Below are positions 33,618-47,488 of a stretch of DNA of 64,000 nt, in pieces. The translations under genes and the position numbers were made by a program. Origin of the DNA: Actinomycetota bacterium (GTDB lineage: Bacteria; Actinomycetota; Thermoleophilia; RBG-16-64-13). The notes under the pieces were generated by a model. The model ran no database searches. It was given only the letters and a program-made list of their open reading frames with translations, and was not told where the DNA came from. The DNA is taken from assembly GCA_018830645.1 (NCBI GenBank), contig JAHJSA010000077.1, positions 1-64,000 of the forward strand, read 5' to 3'. Every line of letters begins with the position of its first letter. Position 1 is the stretch's first letter.

Positions 33618-35363
33618 ATGGAACCCTCCGCCGCACTCCGCCCGACTACTCTGCGCTCCAAAGAAAAGCCGGTGGCCCGCGTGAAGCCTCCACGTTCGGC
33701 CAACGGTTCCCGCAAGCTCGGGGACATCCTGGTTGAGATGCGGTACGTCAACGCCGATCAACTCGACCGAGCCCTGAGCTACCAGAAGGAGAACGGGGCG
33801 CGACTCGGCGAGGCCCTCGTCAAGTTGGGCTACATCACAGAGGACCACTTGGCCGAAGCCATCGCTTCGCAGAAACGCCTTCCCGTGATCCCCCTGGGCG
33901 AAATCCTGCCCAACCCACGGGCGACGGCGCTCCTCTCAGAGAAGTTCGTGCGCTCACGCCAGGTGCTTCCCATCGACTTCGATCGCGATGCGCTGGTCGT
34001 GGCGATGGTGAACCCGCTCGATGTGGTCACCCTCGACGACGTACGGGTCATCACCGGCTACGAGATCGTACCCGCGGTGGTCACGGCGACCGCATTCACC
34101 GACACCGTGGAATACCTGTATTCCGGTCGTGGCTCGCTGGGTTCGGCGCCCGAGGACAGAGGCGCCACCGCCGTAGACATCGCGGAAGACCGGCGGGTGG
34201 CCGAAGACGTCTCGGTGGTCACCTTGGTGGACGACATCCTGGACACGGCGCTGAAGCGCCGCGCGTCCGACGTACACTTCGAACCCCAGCTGTACGAGAT
34301 GCCTGTGCGTATGCGCATCGACGGCGTATTGCACCATGTCACGGAGATCCCGAACCACCTCAAGGGTGGGGTCCTCTCCCGCATCAAGATCATGGGCGAC
34401 ATGGACATCGCCGAGAAACGCCTTCCCCAGGACGGACGAGCCACCTACCGCTCCGACGAGCAGACCGTCGATCTTCGTATCGCCAGCATCCCCACGGTCT
34501 ACGGTGAGAACATCACCATCAGGCTCCTGGACGAGACGATGTTCGAGATCACGCTGGAGGAGTTGGGCTTGGGCGAGGCCGAACTCGTGGTGTTCAGGCG
34601 CGCCCTCAACCGACCGTACGGACAGATCCTCATCACTGGACCCACGGGCTCGGGCAAGTCGACCACCCTCTACTCGGCCCTCGCCGAGATCAACTCGCCC
34701 ACCGTCAAGATCTACACCGTGGAAGACCCCGTCGAGCGCAAGATGCCGGGCATCCTCCAAAGCCAGATCAAGTCGAGCATCGGCCTGACCTTCGCCGCCG
34801 CGCTCCGCTCCCTCGTACGGAGCGATCCCGACGTGATCATGGTGGGCGAGATCCGCGACCTCGAGACGGCCACCATCGCCACCGAAGCCGCCCTGACGGG
34901 ACACCTCGTCATGTCGACCCTCCACACGAACGACGCGGCCTCCACGATCACCCGTTTGGTCGAGATGAGGGTGCCCCCGTTCCTGATCGCCTCCGCGCTC
35001 GAATGCGTGGTCGCTCAGAGGCTCGCGCGCAAACTCTGCCCGCACTGCAAAAGGGAAGTGACGCTCGTGCCGGCCGGTATGACCGCGATGGAGTTCGACC
35101 TCTTCGGAGACACGCCGGTCGCGGTCGCCAAGGCCGTGGGGTGCCGCCGATGCTACGGCACGGGCTACAGCGGACGCGTCGGCCTGTACGAGGTACTCCC
35201 GGTGACGAAGGAGCTCAAGTCCATGATCAGCGACGCGGCAGATACCGACGCTATCCGCGACTATGCCATCCAAGAGGGCATGGCCACACTCCGGCAGGAC
35301 GGCAAGCGCAAGATCCTCCGAAAACTGACCACCGTCGACGAGGTGCAGCGGGTCACCATGTGA
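33618..35363 (+). CDS. pilB: type IV pilus assembly / type II secretion ATPase (PilB/GspE)
   Basis: T2SSE_N-like LGDILVEMRYVNADQLDRALSYQKENGARLGEALVKLGYI; GPTGSGKSTTLYSALAEIN; zinc-binding CPHCKRE...CRRCYGTGYSGRVGLYEVL. Confidence 0.9.
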   Translation: MEPSAALRPTTLRSKEKPVARVKPPRSANGSRKLGDILVEMRYVNADQLDRALSYQKENGARLGEALVKLGYITEDHLAEAIASQKRLPVIPLGEILPNPRATALLSEKFVRSRQVLPIDFDRDALVVAMVNPLDVVTLDDVRVITGYEIVPAVVTATAFTDTVEYLYSGRGSLGSAPEDRGATAVDIAEDRRVAEDVSVVTLVDDILDTALKRRASDVHFEPQLYEMPVRMRIDGVLHHVTEIPNHLKGGVLSRIKIMGDMDIAEKRLPQDGRATYRSDEQTVDLRIASIPTVYGENITIRLLDETMFEITLEELGLGEAELVVFRRALNRPYGQILITGPTGSGKSTTLYSALAEINSPTVKIYTVEDPVERKMPGILQSQIKSSIGLTFAAALRSLVRSDPDVIMVGEIRDLETATIATEAALTGHLVMSTLHTNDAASTITRLVEMRVPPFLIASALECVVAQRLARKLCPHCKREVTLVPAGMTAMEFDLFGDTPVAVAKAVGCRRCYGTGYSGRVGLYEVLPVTKELKSMISDAADTDAIRDYAIQEGMATLRQDGKRKILRKLTTVDEVQRVTM

Positions 35364-35456
35364 TCGACTGAACCTCCCGCTTCGGTTTGCCCCGCCACGT
35401 CGCCCGGGTAGTCTCGCACGGACACGAGAAAACCTTGACGACAAGGAGAGTGGGGT

Positions 35457-35807
35457 ATGCATCGCAAGCACGTATGGTCGCTTCTGCTCGCCCTCGCGAT
35501 CACGACGGCTCTTGTAATCGGAGTCGCCGGATGTGGCGGCGAGACCACGACGACAACCGCGGCACCCACCGAGACCACGGCCGCACCCAGCGGTGTCGAT
35601 GCGGCGCCGATCTACGCCGCCAAGTGCGCCGGCTGTCACGGTGCCGGTGGCGAGGGTGGCGCTGGGCCCGACCTCCGCGCGCTGACCGACGCCGCCGCGG
35701 TCGAGGCTCAGGTGACGACGGGCGGGGGCGCCATGCCTGCGTTCGGCGACACGCTCTCGGCCGAAGACATCACCGCTTTGGGCACGTTCGTGATCGATCT
35801 CGAGTAG
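35457..35807 (+). CDS. secreted monoheme c-type cytochrome, probable lipoprotein
   Basis: Signal peptide with lipobox-like VIGVAGCGG, then YAAKCAGCHGAGGEGGAGPDLRAL...GGGAMPAFGDTLSAEDITALGTFV. Confidence 0.9.
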   Translation: MHRKHVWSLLLALAITTALVIGVAGCGGETTTTTAAPTETTAAPSGVDAAPIYAAKCAGCHGAGGEGGAGPDLRALTDAAAVEAQVTTGGGAMPAFGDTLSAEDITALGTFVIDLE

Positions 35808-35857
35808 GGTGGGAGGGGCGATCGCGAACCCCGCGGTCGCCGTGAGATGACGCTCAC

Positions 35858-35892
35858 CCGGTCGCCGGCGGCTGCGTGCCGCCGGCGACCGG
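35858..35892. terminator. perfect inverted-repeat terminator between convergent cytochrome and gyrA genes
   Basis: CCGGTCGCCGGCGGC-TGCGT-GCCGCCGGCGACCGG: 15-bp perfect arms, 5-nt loop, ends 1 nt before the gyrA stop codon. Confidence 0.85.
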
Positions 35893-35893
35893 A

Positions 35894-38365
35894 TCACATG
35901 TCGTCGATCTCGAGTTGCTCCGTGCCGTTCGGCATGTTCTCGGTGACCACACGGGCCATGCTCGCCACGCGGTCCTTCCCACGCAGGTTCATCACGCGCA
36001 CGCCCATGGTGTTGCGGCCGGTCGGGCGGATGTTCTCGACGGGCATGCGGATCATCTGACCCTCGGTGCTTATGAGCATGATCTCGTGGTTGTCGCGCAC
36101 TGACGCTACAGCCACCAAGTCGCCGCGATCGGAAGAGTCTTTGATCGTGATGACGCCCTGACCGCCGCGCTTCTGCGTGGGGTAGGCCGAGATGGGAGTG
36201 CGCTTGCCGTATCCTCCCGTGGTGACGCAGAAGAGATCGGCGTCGTCGCTGGCGGTCGCCATGCCGATCACGCGATGGCCCGAGCCGAGCCGCATGCCGG
36301 TGACACCCATGGTGTTGCGACCGGTCGGCCGCGCGTCGGACTCGTGGAAGCGGATACTCTTGCCCTCCGACGAGACCAGGATCAGGTCGTCGTCACCGTT
36401 GGTGTGCCGCACGGATACCAGTGCGTCGTCGTCGGCCAGATTGATGGCGATGATGCCGTCGGCTTTCAGCGGGGTGTTGTAGTCGCGGAAGCGTGTCTTC
36501 TTGACGATACCGCTCTGAGTGGCGAACACCAGGTATTCGGCGTCGGTGAAGTCCTTGGTCGCGATGACCGCCTTGATCTCCTCGTCCTGCTGCAGCGGAA
36601 GCAGGTTCACGATCGCACGCCCTTTGGCCTGCCGTGAGCCGAGGGGCAGCTCATGCACCTTCAAGCGATAGATCTTGCCCCGGGAGCTGATGAACAGCAG
36701 GAAGTGGTGCGTGCTGGTGATGAAGAGGTGCTCGAGGTAGTCGCCGTCTTTCGTGTCCATGCCGATGACGCCCACTCCGCCGCGGTGTTGGGTACGGTAG
36801 GTGGACACCGGCAGCCGCTTCACGTAACCCGACTTGGTGAGAGAGATCACCATCTCCTCGACGGCGATCATGTCCTCGATGTCTATCTCGTCCTCGGAGG
36901 GCGCGAGCTCCGTGCGGCGGTCGTCGGCGTACATGGCGCGCACCTCGAGGAGCTCTTCCTTCATCAGGTCGAACACCAGCTGTTCATCGGCCAGGATGGC
37001 CTCGAGCCCCTGTATGCGCTCGAGCAGGTCGGTGTGCTCCTCTTCGATCTTGTGGCGCTCGAGGGCGGTCAGATTGCGCAGACGCAGATCGACGATCGCC
37101 TGCGCCTGCTCCTCGGACAGGCCGAAGGCCGCCATCAGGTTGACCCGCGCGGCCTCCGTGTCTTCGCTCGAGCGGATGAGGCGGATCACTTCGTCGAGGT
37201 TGGCGATCGCTATGAGCAGCCCCTCGAGGATGTGGGCCCGCTTGCGCGCCTTGGCCAACTCGAAGCGCGTGCGCCGGACGATGACGTTCTTCTGGTGGGC
37301 CACGTAGTGGCGGAGCAGGTCGCGCAGCGTCAGGGTGCGCGGCACCCCGTCGACCAGCGCAATGGTGTTCACGCCGAAGGTGCTCTGCATGGCTGTGTGC
37401 CGAAAGAGCTTGTTGAGCACCACCTTGGGGATGGCCTCGCGCTTCAACTCGATCACAATGCGCATGCCCGAGCGATCGGACTCGTCGCGGAGGTCGGAGA
37501 TCTCCGAGATCTTCTTCTCGCGAACCAGCTCGGCGATCTTCTCGATCAGGAGCGCCTTGTTCACCTGGTACGGGATCTCGCTTACGATGATGGCCGTCTT
37601 GCCCTGCCTGAGCGGCTCGCTGTGGGCCTTCGCCCGCACGACCACCCGACCCCTGCCGGTCTCGTAGGCGTCGCGAATACCCGCCATGCCCATGATGATG
37701 CCGCCGGTGGGGAAGTCCGGACCCCGCAGGTGCCGCATCAGCTCGGAGGTCTCGATGGCCGGGTTGTCGATCATGGCGATGGTGGCGTCGATAGCCTCGC
37801 CCAGGTTGTGAGGCGGGATGTTCGTGGCCATGCCCACGGCGATGCCCGAGGAGCCGTTCACCAGGAGATTCGGGAAGCGCGCGGGCAGCACGCTCGGCTC
37901 CTCGCGGCTCTCGTCGTAGTTCGGTACCCAATCGACGGTGTCGGCGTCGATGTCGCGCATCATCTCGGTGGCGAGCTTCGAGAGACGGCACTCGGTGTAG
38001 CGCATGGCGGCGGCTGAGTCACCGTCGACACTGCCGAAGTTGCCGTGACCGTCGACCAGCAGGTAGCGGATAGAGAAGGTCTGCGCGAGACGGACCAATG
38101 TGTCGTAGATCGCCTGGTCGCCGTGGGGATGGAAGCTACCCATCACGTCACCCACGATGCGGGCGCACTTCCGATACGGCTTGGTGGGCTGCATGCCGGA
38201 GTCGTGCATGCCGTAGAGCACACGGCGGTGAACGGGCTTGAGCCCATCGCGCACGTCGGGTAGTGCCCTGCCCACGATCACGCTCATGGCGTAGTCGAGA
38301 TACGAGGAGCGCATCTCCTCGGCGATCTCTATCTGCTCGATGCGTCCCTCGAACGTCTCTAGCAT
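35894..38365 (-). CDS. gyrA: DNA gyrase subunit A
   Basis: [41 protein letters not shown]...[17 protein letters not shown]. Confidence 0.97.
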
Positions 38366-44247: not shown

Positions 44248-44256
44248 TGTGGATAA
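44248..44256 (-). promoter_or_regulatory. DnaA box (TTATCCACA on minus strand)
   Basis: Plus strand TGTGGATAA in the dnaA-dnaN intergenic region; an additional near-match CGTGGACAA lies at 44089-44097. Confidence 0.8.
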
Positions 44257-44315: not shown

Positions 44316-45773
44316 TCATCGAGCGCTCTTGATCTTGGTGGTGAGCTGCTGCACGAGGTTGTAGGTCTCGCGGTCTTCGCGAAGGAGCGCGCCGATCTTG
44401 TCGACCGCGTGGAGCACGGTTGTGTGATCTCGCCCACCGATCCTTTCGCCGATCTTGGGGAGACTCGAGTCTGTGAGTTCACGGGCAAGATACATAGCCA
44501 GGTGCCGGGCCTGCACCACCGGTCGAGTGCGGCGGTCGCCCCGGATCTCGGTTATGGATATCCCGAGAGTGGTCGATACCACGTTCAAGATCAGGTCGAC
44601 CGTCACCCTCGTGCCGGACACCTCGGGGATGTCTCTAAGAACTTCGCGGGCGAGATCGACGTCGATGGGCCGGTTGTTGAATGAGGCGTACGCTACCACT
44701 CGAGTGAGGCACCCCTCCAACTCACGGATGTTCGTGGGAACTCGTGAGGCGATGTGGGTGAGCACTTCCTCTTCGTCGAGACGTACCCCATCGGTGAGCA
44801 CCTTCTTGCGGAGGATGGCGATGCGGGTTTCGAGGTCGGGCGGCTGCACGTCGGTCGTGAGGCCCCAGGCAAACCGGGATACCAGGCGGTCTTCCAGGGT
44901 TTGAAGGGCCTTCGGCGGACGATCGCTTGAGACCACGATCTGCTTGCCTGCGTCGTAGAGCGAATTGAACGTATGGAAGAACTCTTCCTGAGTCTGCTCC
45001 TTGTGCTCCAAGAACTGGATGTCGTCCATGAGAAGGACGTCGTTGTCGCGATACCGGCGCTTGAAGCCCTCGATCGAGTCGTCGCGGAGCGAGTTGATGA
45101 ACTCGTTGGTGAACGACTCGATGGTCACAAACTTTACGCGCAGGTGCGGCGCGTGTCTGACCACGTAGTGGCCGATGGCTTGGAGAAGGTGGGTCTTGCC
45201 CAGACCGACTCCTCCGTAGATGAAGAGCGGGTTGTACTTCGTGCCCGGGCTCTCGGCGGTTGCCAACGCCGCCGCGTGGGCGAAACGATTGGAGGGCCCG
45301 ATGACGAACGACTCGAAGGTGTACTTGCCGTTGAGTCCGATTTCTTCGGTGGAAGGCTGCACCACGTGCGGTGTCACAGGTGTGGTCGGCGCTCCAGGTG
45401 CGTGAAGTCGCGCCTCGGGCAGCACCGTCCTGGAGGACAGCGGCTCGGATGTTTGCGTCGTGGATGCTCCGGCCCCGGCGATCGCCCCCGATTGTCCCTC
45501 GTCGAGCCTGCGGGCAAGATCGGCCGACACGGCCACGCGACACTTGACGCTGCCGCCCACCACCATAGAGACGGATTCGCTCATCAGGTCGAGGAAGCGG
45601 GAGTGGATCCAGTCCTTAGCGAACTCGGAGGGCACGCCCACCATGAAAGTGTCACCGGTGAACTCCAGCCCGACTGTCGAGTGGAACCAGATCCGGTACG
45701 TTCCTTCGTTCACGCGTGTCGCGATGACAGCGAGGGCCTCCGTCCAGATCGTCTCAGTGTTCTTCTTGTCCAT
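44316..45773 (-). CDS. dnaA: chromosomal replication initiator protein DnaA
   Basis: [21 protein letters not shown]...[15 protein letters not shown]...[24 protein letters not shown]...[40 protein letters not shown]. Confidence 0.97.
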
Positions 45774-45848
45774 GGGCTGGTGCGACTCCAGAAGCCGGGC
45801 GATACTCGAGCCACAGTAGCGCCCGAGCACCTGATGATGATCGAGCCA

Positions 45849-46622
45849 CTATAGTACAGCCTGCACGTATGCGAGACCTTCATCCGTAGCCAGACGGTGA
45901 CCGTTGCTGCCGGCGTCGACGTATCCGGCCTCCTGCAGGGTCACGAGGTCCCGGTACGACGTGGACGCCGAGATACCGAGCTCGCGTGCGATAGCGGTGG
46001 GTCCCACGGGTCCCAGTTCCACGATCAACAGAAGAGCGCGCAGTTGCCGCTCCGAGATCGTCGGGCCCAAGGCGCCCTTCGGGGAGAATCGGGTGGTCTC
46101 AGCCGTGCGCGGAACCCGGGCGGTGACCACGGAGCCGCCGCCGAGATTGTCGTCGATCTCGAGACTGCCGCCGAGAGCCTCGAGCGTTGCCGCGGCGAGT
46201 CCAAGTCCCGACCCGACTCCCCGGATCACCTCCCGCAGGCTCACGTTCGACGTGGTGAACCCCGGCAGCAACGCCCGCTCCTTATCGCGGATCCCCGGGC
46301 CCCGATCCGACACACGGAGCGTGTCGCCACCATCGAGTAGGCTGACCACGGCACCAGCCGTGCCTGCGTGGGAGAGGTTGTCGATGAGCTCGCGCACGGC
46401 GAGTATCGGCATGCGGCTCCCGGTGCTCTGGATGTGCTCCTCGATGAAGTCAGCCGTAGCGCGCAGCACGGCTCCGAGGTCGTCTCCCGGCATTCGGTAG
46501 ACTCGGGGCGGCGTCCTCTCGCCCATGTAGTGGGCCACGAGTAGCGCCGGGTCGGCCGGCGGGGCGGAAGCCGTCGAGCTGTCGACAGCCTCTTCGGTGA
46601 TGCTCTCAGAGTCCGCGCTCAT
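45849..46622 (-). CDS. GHKL (HATPase_c) ATPase domain fused to C-terminal winged-helix HTH
   Basis: N box VRELIDNLSHAG, G1 VSDRGPGI, G2 RGVGSGLGLAAATLEALGGSLEI; then ERQLRALLLIVELGPVGPTAIARELGISASTSYRDLVTLQEAGYVDA (wHTH). No HisKA domain. Confidence 0.8.
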   Translation of the reverse strand: MSADSESITEEAVDSSTASAPPADPALLVAHYMGERTPPRVYRMPGDDLGAVLRATADFIEEHIQSTGSRMPILAVRELIDNLSHAGTAGAVVSLLDGGDTLRVSDRGPGIRDKERALLPGFTTSNVSLREVIRGVGSGLGLAAATLEALGGSLEIDDNLGGGSVVTARVPRTAETTRFSPKGALGPTISERQLRALLLIVELGPVGPTAIARELGISASTSYRDLVTLQEAGYVDAGSNGHRLATDEGLAYVQAVL

Positions 46623-46816
46623 CCGTCCCCTTTGCGACCGAACAGCACATCCCATGCCTTCAGAAACGCGGAGTCTATTCTAGCCTGCGCCGGGCAGTCT
46701 TTCCACAGGTCTTGGTTCCGCAAAGGGCGCAGGCAGCCGGTCTACGCCGGATTCTTGGGTGACGTTTCATTCGGATGCGAGACCAAAAGAACCCTGTGGG
46801 CTGGCAGATCTAGGGT

Positions 46817-46825
46817 TTATCCACA
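46817..46825 (+). promoter_or_regulatory. DnaA box (TTATCCACA)
   Basis: Exact 9-mer in the divergent intergenic region upstream of the ATPase-HTH/dnaA operon. Confidence 0.8.
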
Positions 46826-47168
46826 TGAGGTTCCACATCTGTTGACAAACGGACGCAACGTGAAACGTGAAGCAAGAGCGGACCCTTCCTTTCTGGGGAT
46901 TCTGGGGATACACCATTCCGGGGAAGTCTGCAGCGCGTGCAACCGGAAGCCCTCCTCAAACGGCTGTCGGGGTTCGATCGAGAAGGCCGAAGTGAAGCGC
47001 TGAGCCGCTTGGGACCCGAAGTGCTCGGAACGAGGAAGAGGAATCCTGCAATTTGCGGGCTTGTGTCGGCAGAGACCGGAGAGAGCGGTCCACTGACAGC
47101 GTCCACCGCGGACTCCTTCCACAGGCATCGAACAGCAGCTTCCGCCGAGAAGACGAGGTGGGCGCGTG

Positions 47169-47177
47169 TTGTCCACA
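47169..47177 (+). promoter_or_regulatory. DnaA box (TTGTCCACA)
   Basis: TTGTCCACA, the variant common in actinobacterial origins, in the same intergenic region. Confidence 0.65.
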
Positions 47178-47353: not shown

Positions 47354-47488
47354 GTGAAACGCACGTATCAGCCGAACAAGCGCAAGAGGAAGAAGACACA
47401 CGGCTTCCGCGAGCGCATGAGCACCAAAGCGGGCCGCGCGATCTTGAAGCGGCGGCGCGACAAGGGTCGCAAGCGTCTTACCGTCTGA
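47354..47488 (+). CDS. rpmH: 50S ribosomal protein L34
   Basis: GTG-start 44-aa [47 protein letters not shown]; not in the ORF track. Confidence 0.97.

Follow-up and report, generated by a model that had tools for sequence, protein, structure and literature searches.

A GHKL–winged-helix gene directly upstream of dnaA in deep Actinomycetota, a candidate regulator of replication initiation

How DnaA is controlled has been worked out in detail for only a few model bacteria and, to our knowledge, most phyla are without recognised homologues of the regulators described there. YabA and Soj are clade-specific regulators of DnaA, and we know of no regulator of this kind that is encoded directly before dnaA itself. 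That the control of DnaA can be restricted to particular taxa is well known, SirA, DiaA, HobA and Hda being further examples (PMC13270200). The GHKL domain of NifL binds ATP and ADP without hydrolysing them and is the nucleotide sensor of a transcription switch (PMC9866876). The gene considered here, termed ghkl, encodes a GHKL domain followed by a winged helix and precedes dnaA in a 64-kb stretch of DNA that was analysed as a whole (the window). No description of it was found in the searched literature, subscription papers being outside that search.

Domain architecture and neighbourhood of ghkl

The gene, its predicted domains and the two genes that flank it are as follows.

45849..46622, minus strand: ghkl, 257 amino acids (open reading frame translation); its closest relative, L004, has the same start codon
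46104..46403, minus strand: HATPase_c (GHKL) domain, residues 74–173 (Pfam PF02518)
46365..46391, minus strand: N box ELIDNLSHA, residues 78–86; E78, N82 and H85 invariant in 107 of 107 orthologues
46293..46307, minus strand: G1 box DRGPG, residues 106–110; D106, G108 and G110 invariant in 107 of 107
46206..46220, minus strand: G2 box GVGSG, residues 135–139; G135 and G139 invariant, G137 in 106 of 107
45876..46058, minus strand: winged-helix domain (IclR/TrmB/MarR-like), residues 189–249 (Pfam and predicted fold); R224 conserved
44316..45773, minus strand: dnaA, ATG start (TIGR00362, E 2.9e-156)
47354..47488, plus strand: rpmH (L34; TIGR01030, E 5.3e-22), divergent from ghkl and bounding the origin region

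An alternative ATG at 46655 would lengthen the protein by 11 residues; the start at 46622 is closely preceded by a purine-rich AAAGGGG. The motifs quoted in the earlier note (ELIDNLSHAG, DRGPGI and GVGSGLGLA) are all present in the 257-residue translation, and its description of a GHKL domain joined to a winged helix-turn-helix, with no dimerisation or phosphoacceptor domain of a histidine kinase, is borne out by profile searches. HATPase_c (E∼1.8e-10 to 1.9e-10; 41.6 bits against a cut-off of 26.4) and HTH_IclR (residues 204–235; E 6.5e-6; 26.3 bits against a cut-off of 22) both score above their Pfam cut-offs, weaker Pfam matches to TrmB, MarR and others lying behind HTH_IclR, while neither HisKA nor any other phosphoacceptor or dimerisation domain was found in Pfam at E≤1 or in NCBIfam, whose matches to the protein are weak and partial. 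Residues 1–73 are too short and too dissimilar to form a dimerisation domain of the HisKA type. Hence, of the two parts that define a sensor histidine kinase, the protein has the catalytic HATPase_c domain and lacks a HisKA-type domain with its phosphoacceptor histidine; the winged helix of a transcription regulator is present both as an HTH_IclR match above cut-off and as a predicted fold. All 22 rows of the orthologue alignment match PF02518, and the winged helix is present in every examined orthologue except one that is cut by a contig end.

An AlphaFold model built from 12 sequences (mean pLDDT 77, pTM 0.54) contains two confident domains separated by a low-confidence linker (residues 174–184). 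The winged helix is modelled as helices 191–203, 208–215 and 219–231 plus wing strands, with pLDDT∼90. Given these scores, the domain folds are usable and the relative placement of the domains is not. The best fold matches in the PDB are histidine-kinase catalytic cores, and the best match spanning both domains is 3lmm (Foldseek, 265–268 columns). By its sequence, the ghkl protein is a GHKL domain with an intact ATP site, a flexible linker and a winged helix, and it is predicted to bind ATP and DNA.

Besides the invariant residues of the three boxes, G121, G152 and G163 never vary in the 107 orthologues; 102 of these share R224 of the recognition helix. The linker ranges from ∼20 to ∼200 residues across orthologues and the winged helix is retained nonetheless; in L014 and L167–L171, presumed to be Coriobacteriaceae or Atopobiaceae, it reaches ∼200 residues and is rich in P, Q, A and G. 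Comparison of ghkl with its closest relative (80% identity) gives a dN/dS of 0.20, against 0.08 for dnaA and 0.03 for dnaN in the same pair of genomes. The gene is thus under selection yet evolves faster than the core replication machinery, as regulators often do. Because orthologues with invariant motifs occur in ∼26 families and dN/dS is 0.20, ghkl is not a chance open reading frame.

The position of ghkl as the first gene of a minus-strand run, 75 bp before dnaA, is correct if dnaA is taken to start at the ATG at 45773; the DnaA frame extends without a stop to a GTG at 45830, and a start there would leave a gap of 18 bp. The run continues with dnaA, dnaN, recF, dciA/DUF721, gyrB and gyrA, so that the gene order given in the earlier note stands, except that it had omitted dciA between recF and gyrB. 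On the other side of ghkl, rpmH and rnpA are divergent. After gyrA lies an open frame of 647 amino acids (33954–35897, minus strand) with no Pfam match, which may be a gene or a chance frame. No Rfam family was found in the ghkl–dnaA locus, and PADLOC matched only the winged helix to CARF/Csa3 regulators, with no sign of a defence system there.

Linkage to dnaA and distribution among genomes

Orthologues were collected in two sets, which may share a few genomes. The class/GTDB set comprises the window's class and a scan of the GTDB genome collection with the single protein (11 true relatives), and the phylum set derives from a search of 397 genomes of the phylum with a 22-row profile, which 159 of them match at E≤1e-12. 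The search of the window's class was bimodal: families f1, f2 and f3 gave full-length matches at E<1e-30 and the rest was a kinase background at E>1e-11. At E≤1e-12 the gene is single copy among the genomes listed, apart from matches split by a long linker, and no second full-length copy was found in the window's own genome.

After removal of duplicates, all 56 orthologues of the class/GTDB set with dnaA on their contig directly precede it on the same strand, and on two further closed chromosomes, which appear to start at dnaA, ghkl is the last gene. The phylum set contains 136 listed orthologues with coordinates. Of these, 122, from 22 families, are directly upstream of dnaA on the same strand, 6 belong to closed chromosomes whose linearised record has dnaA at its opposite end and therefore adjoin it on the circle, and 8 are beyond scoring owing to contig breaks or a missing dnaA. 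No counterexample to the adjacency occurs among the scorable loci of both sets (178 directly scored), and the spacing is usually less than ∼120 bp. Ten genomes of family f2 seemingly have no ghkl; nine of these have no dnaA and one has a dnaA fragment only, so these absences are assembly gaps. The earlier note had made linkage in related genomes its main check and scattered, unlinked homologues the first of its refuting outcomes. The linkage is strongly supported by the direct cases of both sets and the circular cases of the phylum set, and it holds far more widely than the first observation could show. A conserved association with dnaA/oriC, as looked for in a regulator of DnaA or of oriC, is thereby found for ghkl.

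Full-length single-copy orthologues are present in ∼26 families from several deep lineages of Actinomycetota. The carriers presumably include Rubrobacter xylanophilus, Eggerthella lenta, Cryptobacterium curtum and Atopobium parvulum, and we take family f23 to be probably Rubrobacter. Within the window's class, ghkl was not found in families f4–f12, where the 22-row profile matches nothing in the members checked and rpmH directly precedes dnaA in most of them. Since these families live without the gene, it is not universally required. In the GHKL tree every tested family except f1 forms a clade, which is consistent with vertical inheritance and lineage-specific loss. Loci L007 and L009–L011 are labelled Aeromicrobium or Bacillota; by their GHKL genes and gene order they fall among deep Actinomycetota, and the labels may be wrong.

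Origin context of the ghkl–dnaA pair

The window contains three TTRTCCACA boxes against 0.31 expected, two in the rpmH–ghkl region and one between dnaA and dnaN. These and other candidate elements are as follows.

46817..46825, plus strand: perfect DnaA box TTATCCACA (box scan)
47169..47177, plus strand: DnaA box TTGTCCACA (box scan)
44248..44256, minus strand: perfect DnaA box in the dnaA–dnaN gap (box scan)
46700..46709, plus strand: DnaA-box-like TTTCCACAGG (from sequence), overlapping the −35 of the candidate promoter; the same in L004
46677..46705, minus strand: candidate sigma-70 promoter of the ghkl–dnaA unit, TGGAAA-17-TAGAAT (consensus scan only)
47045..47059, minus strand: near-palindrome CCCGCAAATTGCAGG, with no other perfect copy in the genome and an identical counterpart in L004

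Because the only three boxes of the window flank the ghkl–dnaA pair, the gene lies inside a probable, bipartite-looking origin, between the DnaA-box cluster on the rpmH side and dnaA. Both hexamers of the candidate promoter are conserved in L004. With a promoter predicted before ghkl and none predicted in the ghkl–dnaA gap of the window by the same consensus scan, co-transcription of ghkl and dnaA is likely.

Across orthologous loci, the words most enriched upstream of ghkl are 8-mers of the DnaA box, TATCCACA occurring in 66 of 104 regions against 0.55 expected, and the boxes are typically arranged as TTATCCACA-nn-TGTGGATAA-nnn-TGTGGATAA. No ghkl-specific operator was found in the upstream regions by 8-mer enrichment and within-family alignment, and in several lineages no motif other than the DnaA box stands out there. 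Three candidate operators were rejected: ACATCTGT arises where two DnaA boxes meet head to head, GGCTGATAGGT (family f2) belongs to the rpmH coding sequence, and CCTGCAAA, which follows DnaA boxes in f1, f3 and the Rubrobacter-like f23, is also present in relatives without ghkl (the f4/f8/f11 group and f6) and is therefore more likely an origin or unwinding element. The near-palindrome CCCGCAAATTGCAGG has related elements in families f1 and f3 and might act in unwinding or as an operator; as its f3 counterpart sits right after a DnaA box, it was not assigned to the ghkl protein.

Upstream DnaA-box counts differ between loci with and without ghkl (p∼1.5e-4, the lineages not being independent), and families f4, f6, f8 and f11 keep upstream boxes without the gene; an association of ghkl loss with loss of these boxes is only suggestive. 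At loci L209–L220 of families f5, f7, f9 and f10, which are without ghkl, the gaps flanking dnaA are short and have almost no DnaA-box-like sites, and the origin may have moved or the boxes diverged.

Some arrangements are particular to single families. The dnaA–dnaN gap of L231 and L232 (f23) has 18–19 DnaA-box-like sites, besides the conserved triplet upstream of ghkl. At L053–L067 (f2) a conserved TTTTTCCCGCTCnnAC, enriched in that family only, lies between two DnaA boxes ∼60–100 bp before ghkl. The f3 loci L034–L050 share a conserved extended −10, TGnTATACT, ∼10–15 bp before the ghkl start, which suggests a leaderless transcript.

Possible roles and comparison with known systems

We propose, with a probability of roughly 0.55, that the ghkl protein belongs to the replication-initiation locus as a one-component DNA-binding regulator, senses adenine nucleotides and tunes dnaA expression and/or origin firing. 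The gene would be co-transcribed with dnaA from the promoter that overlaps the DnaA-box-like site. Binding of ATP versus ADP to the GHKL domain would change dimerisation or the arrangement of the domains, the winged helix would then bind DNA in the origin/dnaA promoter region, and the bound protein would adjust dnaA expression and/or DnaA assembly at oriC, so that initiation would be coupled to energy status or DnaA level subjected to feedback. A GHKL domain can be an ATP/ADP sensor of this kind, NifL giving a precedent by analogy. Since ghkl always adjoins dnaA and the origin, its most probable target is the expression of dnaA or the activity of the origin. The conserved ATP-site and winged-helix residues, the upstream DnaA-box cluster and the predicted shared promoter are consistent with ATP-responsive control. 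The failure of the motif search to reveal an operator particular to this protein, CCTGCAAA being present in relatives without ghkl as well, and the absence of the gene from f4–f12 count against a regulator, as does the fact that operon position alone can stay conserved without functional coupling. A wider form of the proposal is offered tentatively: the protein, ATP/ADP-gated and produced along with DnaA, would bind oriC and license or delay initiation according to energy charge, and its gene would have been present in the ancestors of several deep classes of Actinomycetota and have disappeared from others since.

It is fairly unlikely that the ghkl protein is an ordinary transcription factor whose targets are unrelated genes and whose gene stands before dnaA by chance, as part of a stable ancestral operon. 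In bacteria generally the genes around dnaA keep their order, and no ghkl-specific site was found near dnaA; however, the position is unbroken in the 178 directly scored loci, the gene is always single copy, and its neighbours on the other side are divergent, so that only the link to dnaA is co-directional. Protein kinases also belong to the GHKL fold, profile matches extend to SpoIIAB structures (E 0.004; histidine-kinase catalytic domains are stronger, with SpoKinB at E 5.3e-9), and the conserved N-box glutamate is compatible with catalysis. Nevertheless, a SpoIIAB/RsbW-type or orphan kinase whose phosphorylated partner might be DnaA or a replication protein, with the winged helix as an accessory or protein-binding element, is unlikely. 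The protein has no phosphoacceptor domain and no conserved partner gene besides dnaA, its winged helix is conserved including R224, and the RsbW-type models fit the family poorly (HATPase_c_2, PF13581, matches 2 of 22 members weakly at E∼0.002; TIGR01925 scores 15.5 bits against a cut-off of 135).

We consider improbable a structural origin-binding or segregation protein, acting as an ATP-gated clamp on oriC without transcription control. The gene does lie beside a DnaA-box cluster, and the GHKL domains of MutL, GyrB and Hsp90 are ATP-gated dimer clamps, but the ghkl protein has no transducer domain, which supplies the catalytic lysine in those proteins, and a winged helix of IclR/TrmB type is typical of transcription factors. 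A decayed, functionless remnant of a histidine kinase, as the missing H-box domain might suggest, is practically negligible given the active-site residues invariant in 107 sequences and the dN/dS of 0.20.

The gene is a strong candidate for a control of DNA replication that has so far been overlooked. It offers a direct handle on initiation control in deep Actinomycetota, among them probably Rubrobacter and some gut commensals (Eggerthella, Atopobium and their relatives), and several of the presumed carriers are culturable, which makes the hypothesis testable at once.

Among known systems, the catalytic domains of histidine kinases (sporulation kinase B, EnvZ, HK853; PF02518) are the best sequence and fold matches and share the GHKL fold with its N, G1, F and G2 boxes; unlike them, the ghkl protein has no dimerisation/phosphoacceptor domain and no sensor or membrane part, and its GHKL domain is followed by a winged helix. 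SpoIIAB and RsbW are likewise small GHKL proteins without a phosphoacceptor domain, but they have no winged helix and are partnered with sigma and anti-anti-sigma factors, and the ghkl sequence is closer to HATPase_c. NifL shares the GHKL domain, but has PAS domains, acts by binding NifA rather than DNA, and is encoded at an unrelated locus. In 3lmm (DIP2311) a GHKL domain again precedes a winged helix, but identity to the ghkl protein is ∼17% and the TM-score on the query is low (0.42–0.45). We take 3lmm to be an AlbA_2/Schlafen–HATPase_c_4–winged-helix protein of COG2865, which carries an AlbA-like domain at its N terminus and a GHKL domain of another family; the AlbA/Schlafen and HATPase_c_4 models have no match in the ghkl protein (Pfam, E≤1), and we know of no dnaA linkage for such regulators. 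Thus the combination of GHKL domain and winged helix is already known, and this dnaA-linked gene is not described in the searched literature. In uniting the two domains, the ghkl protein differs from each of SirA, DiaA, HobA, Hda, YabA and Soj.
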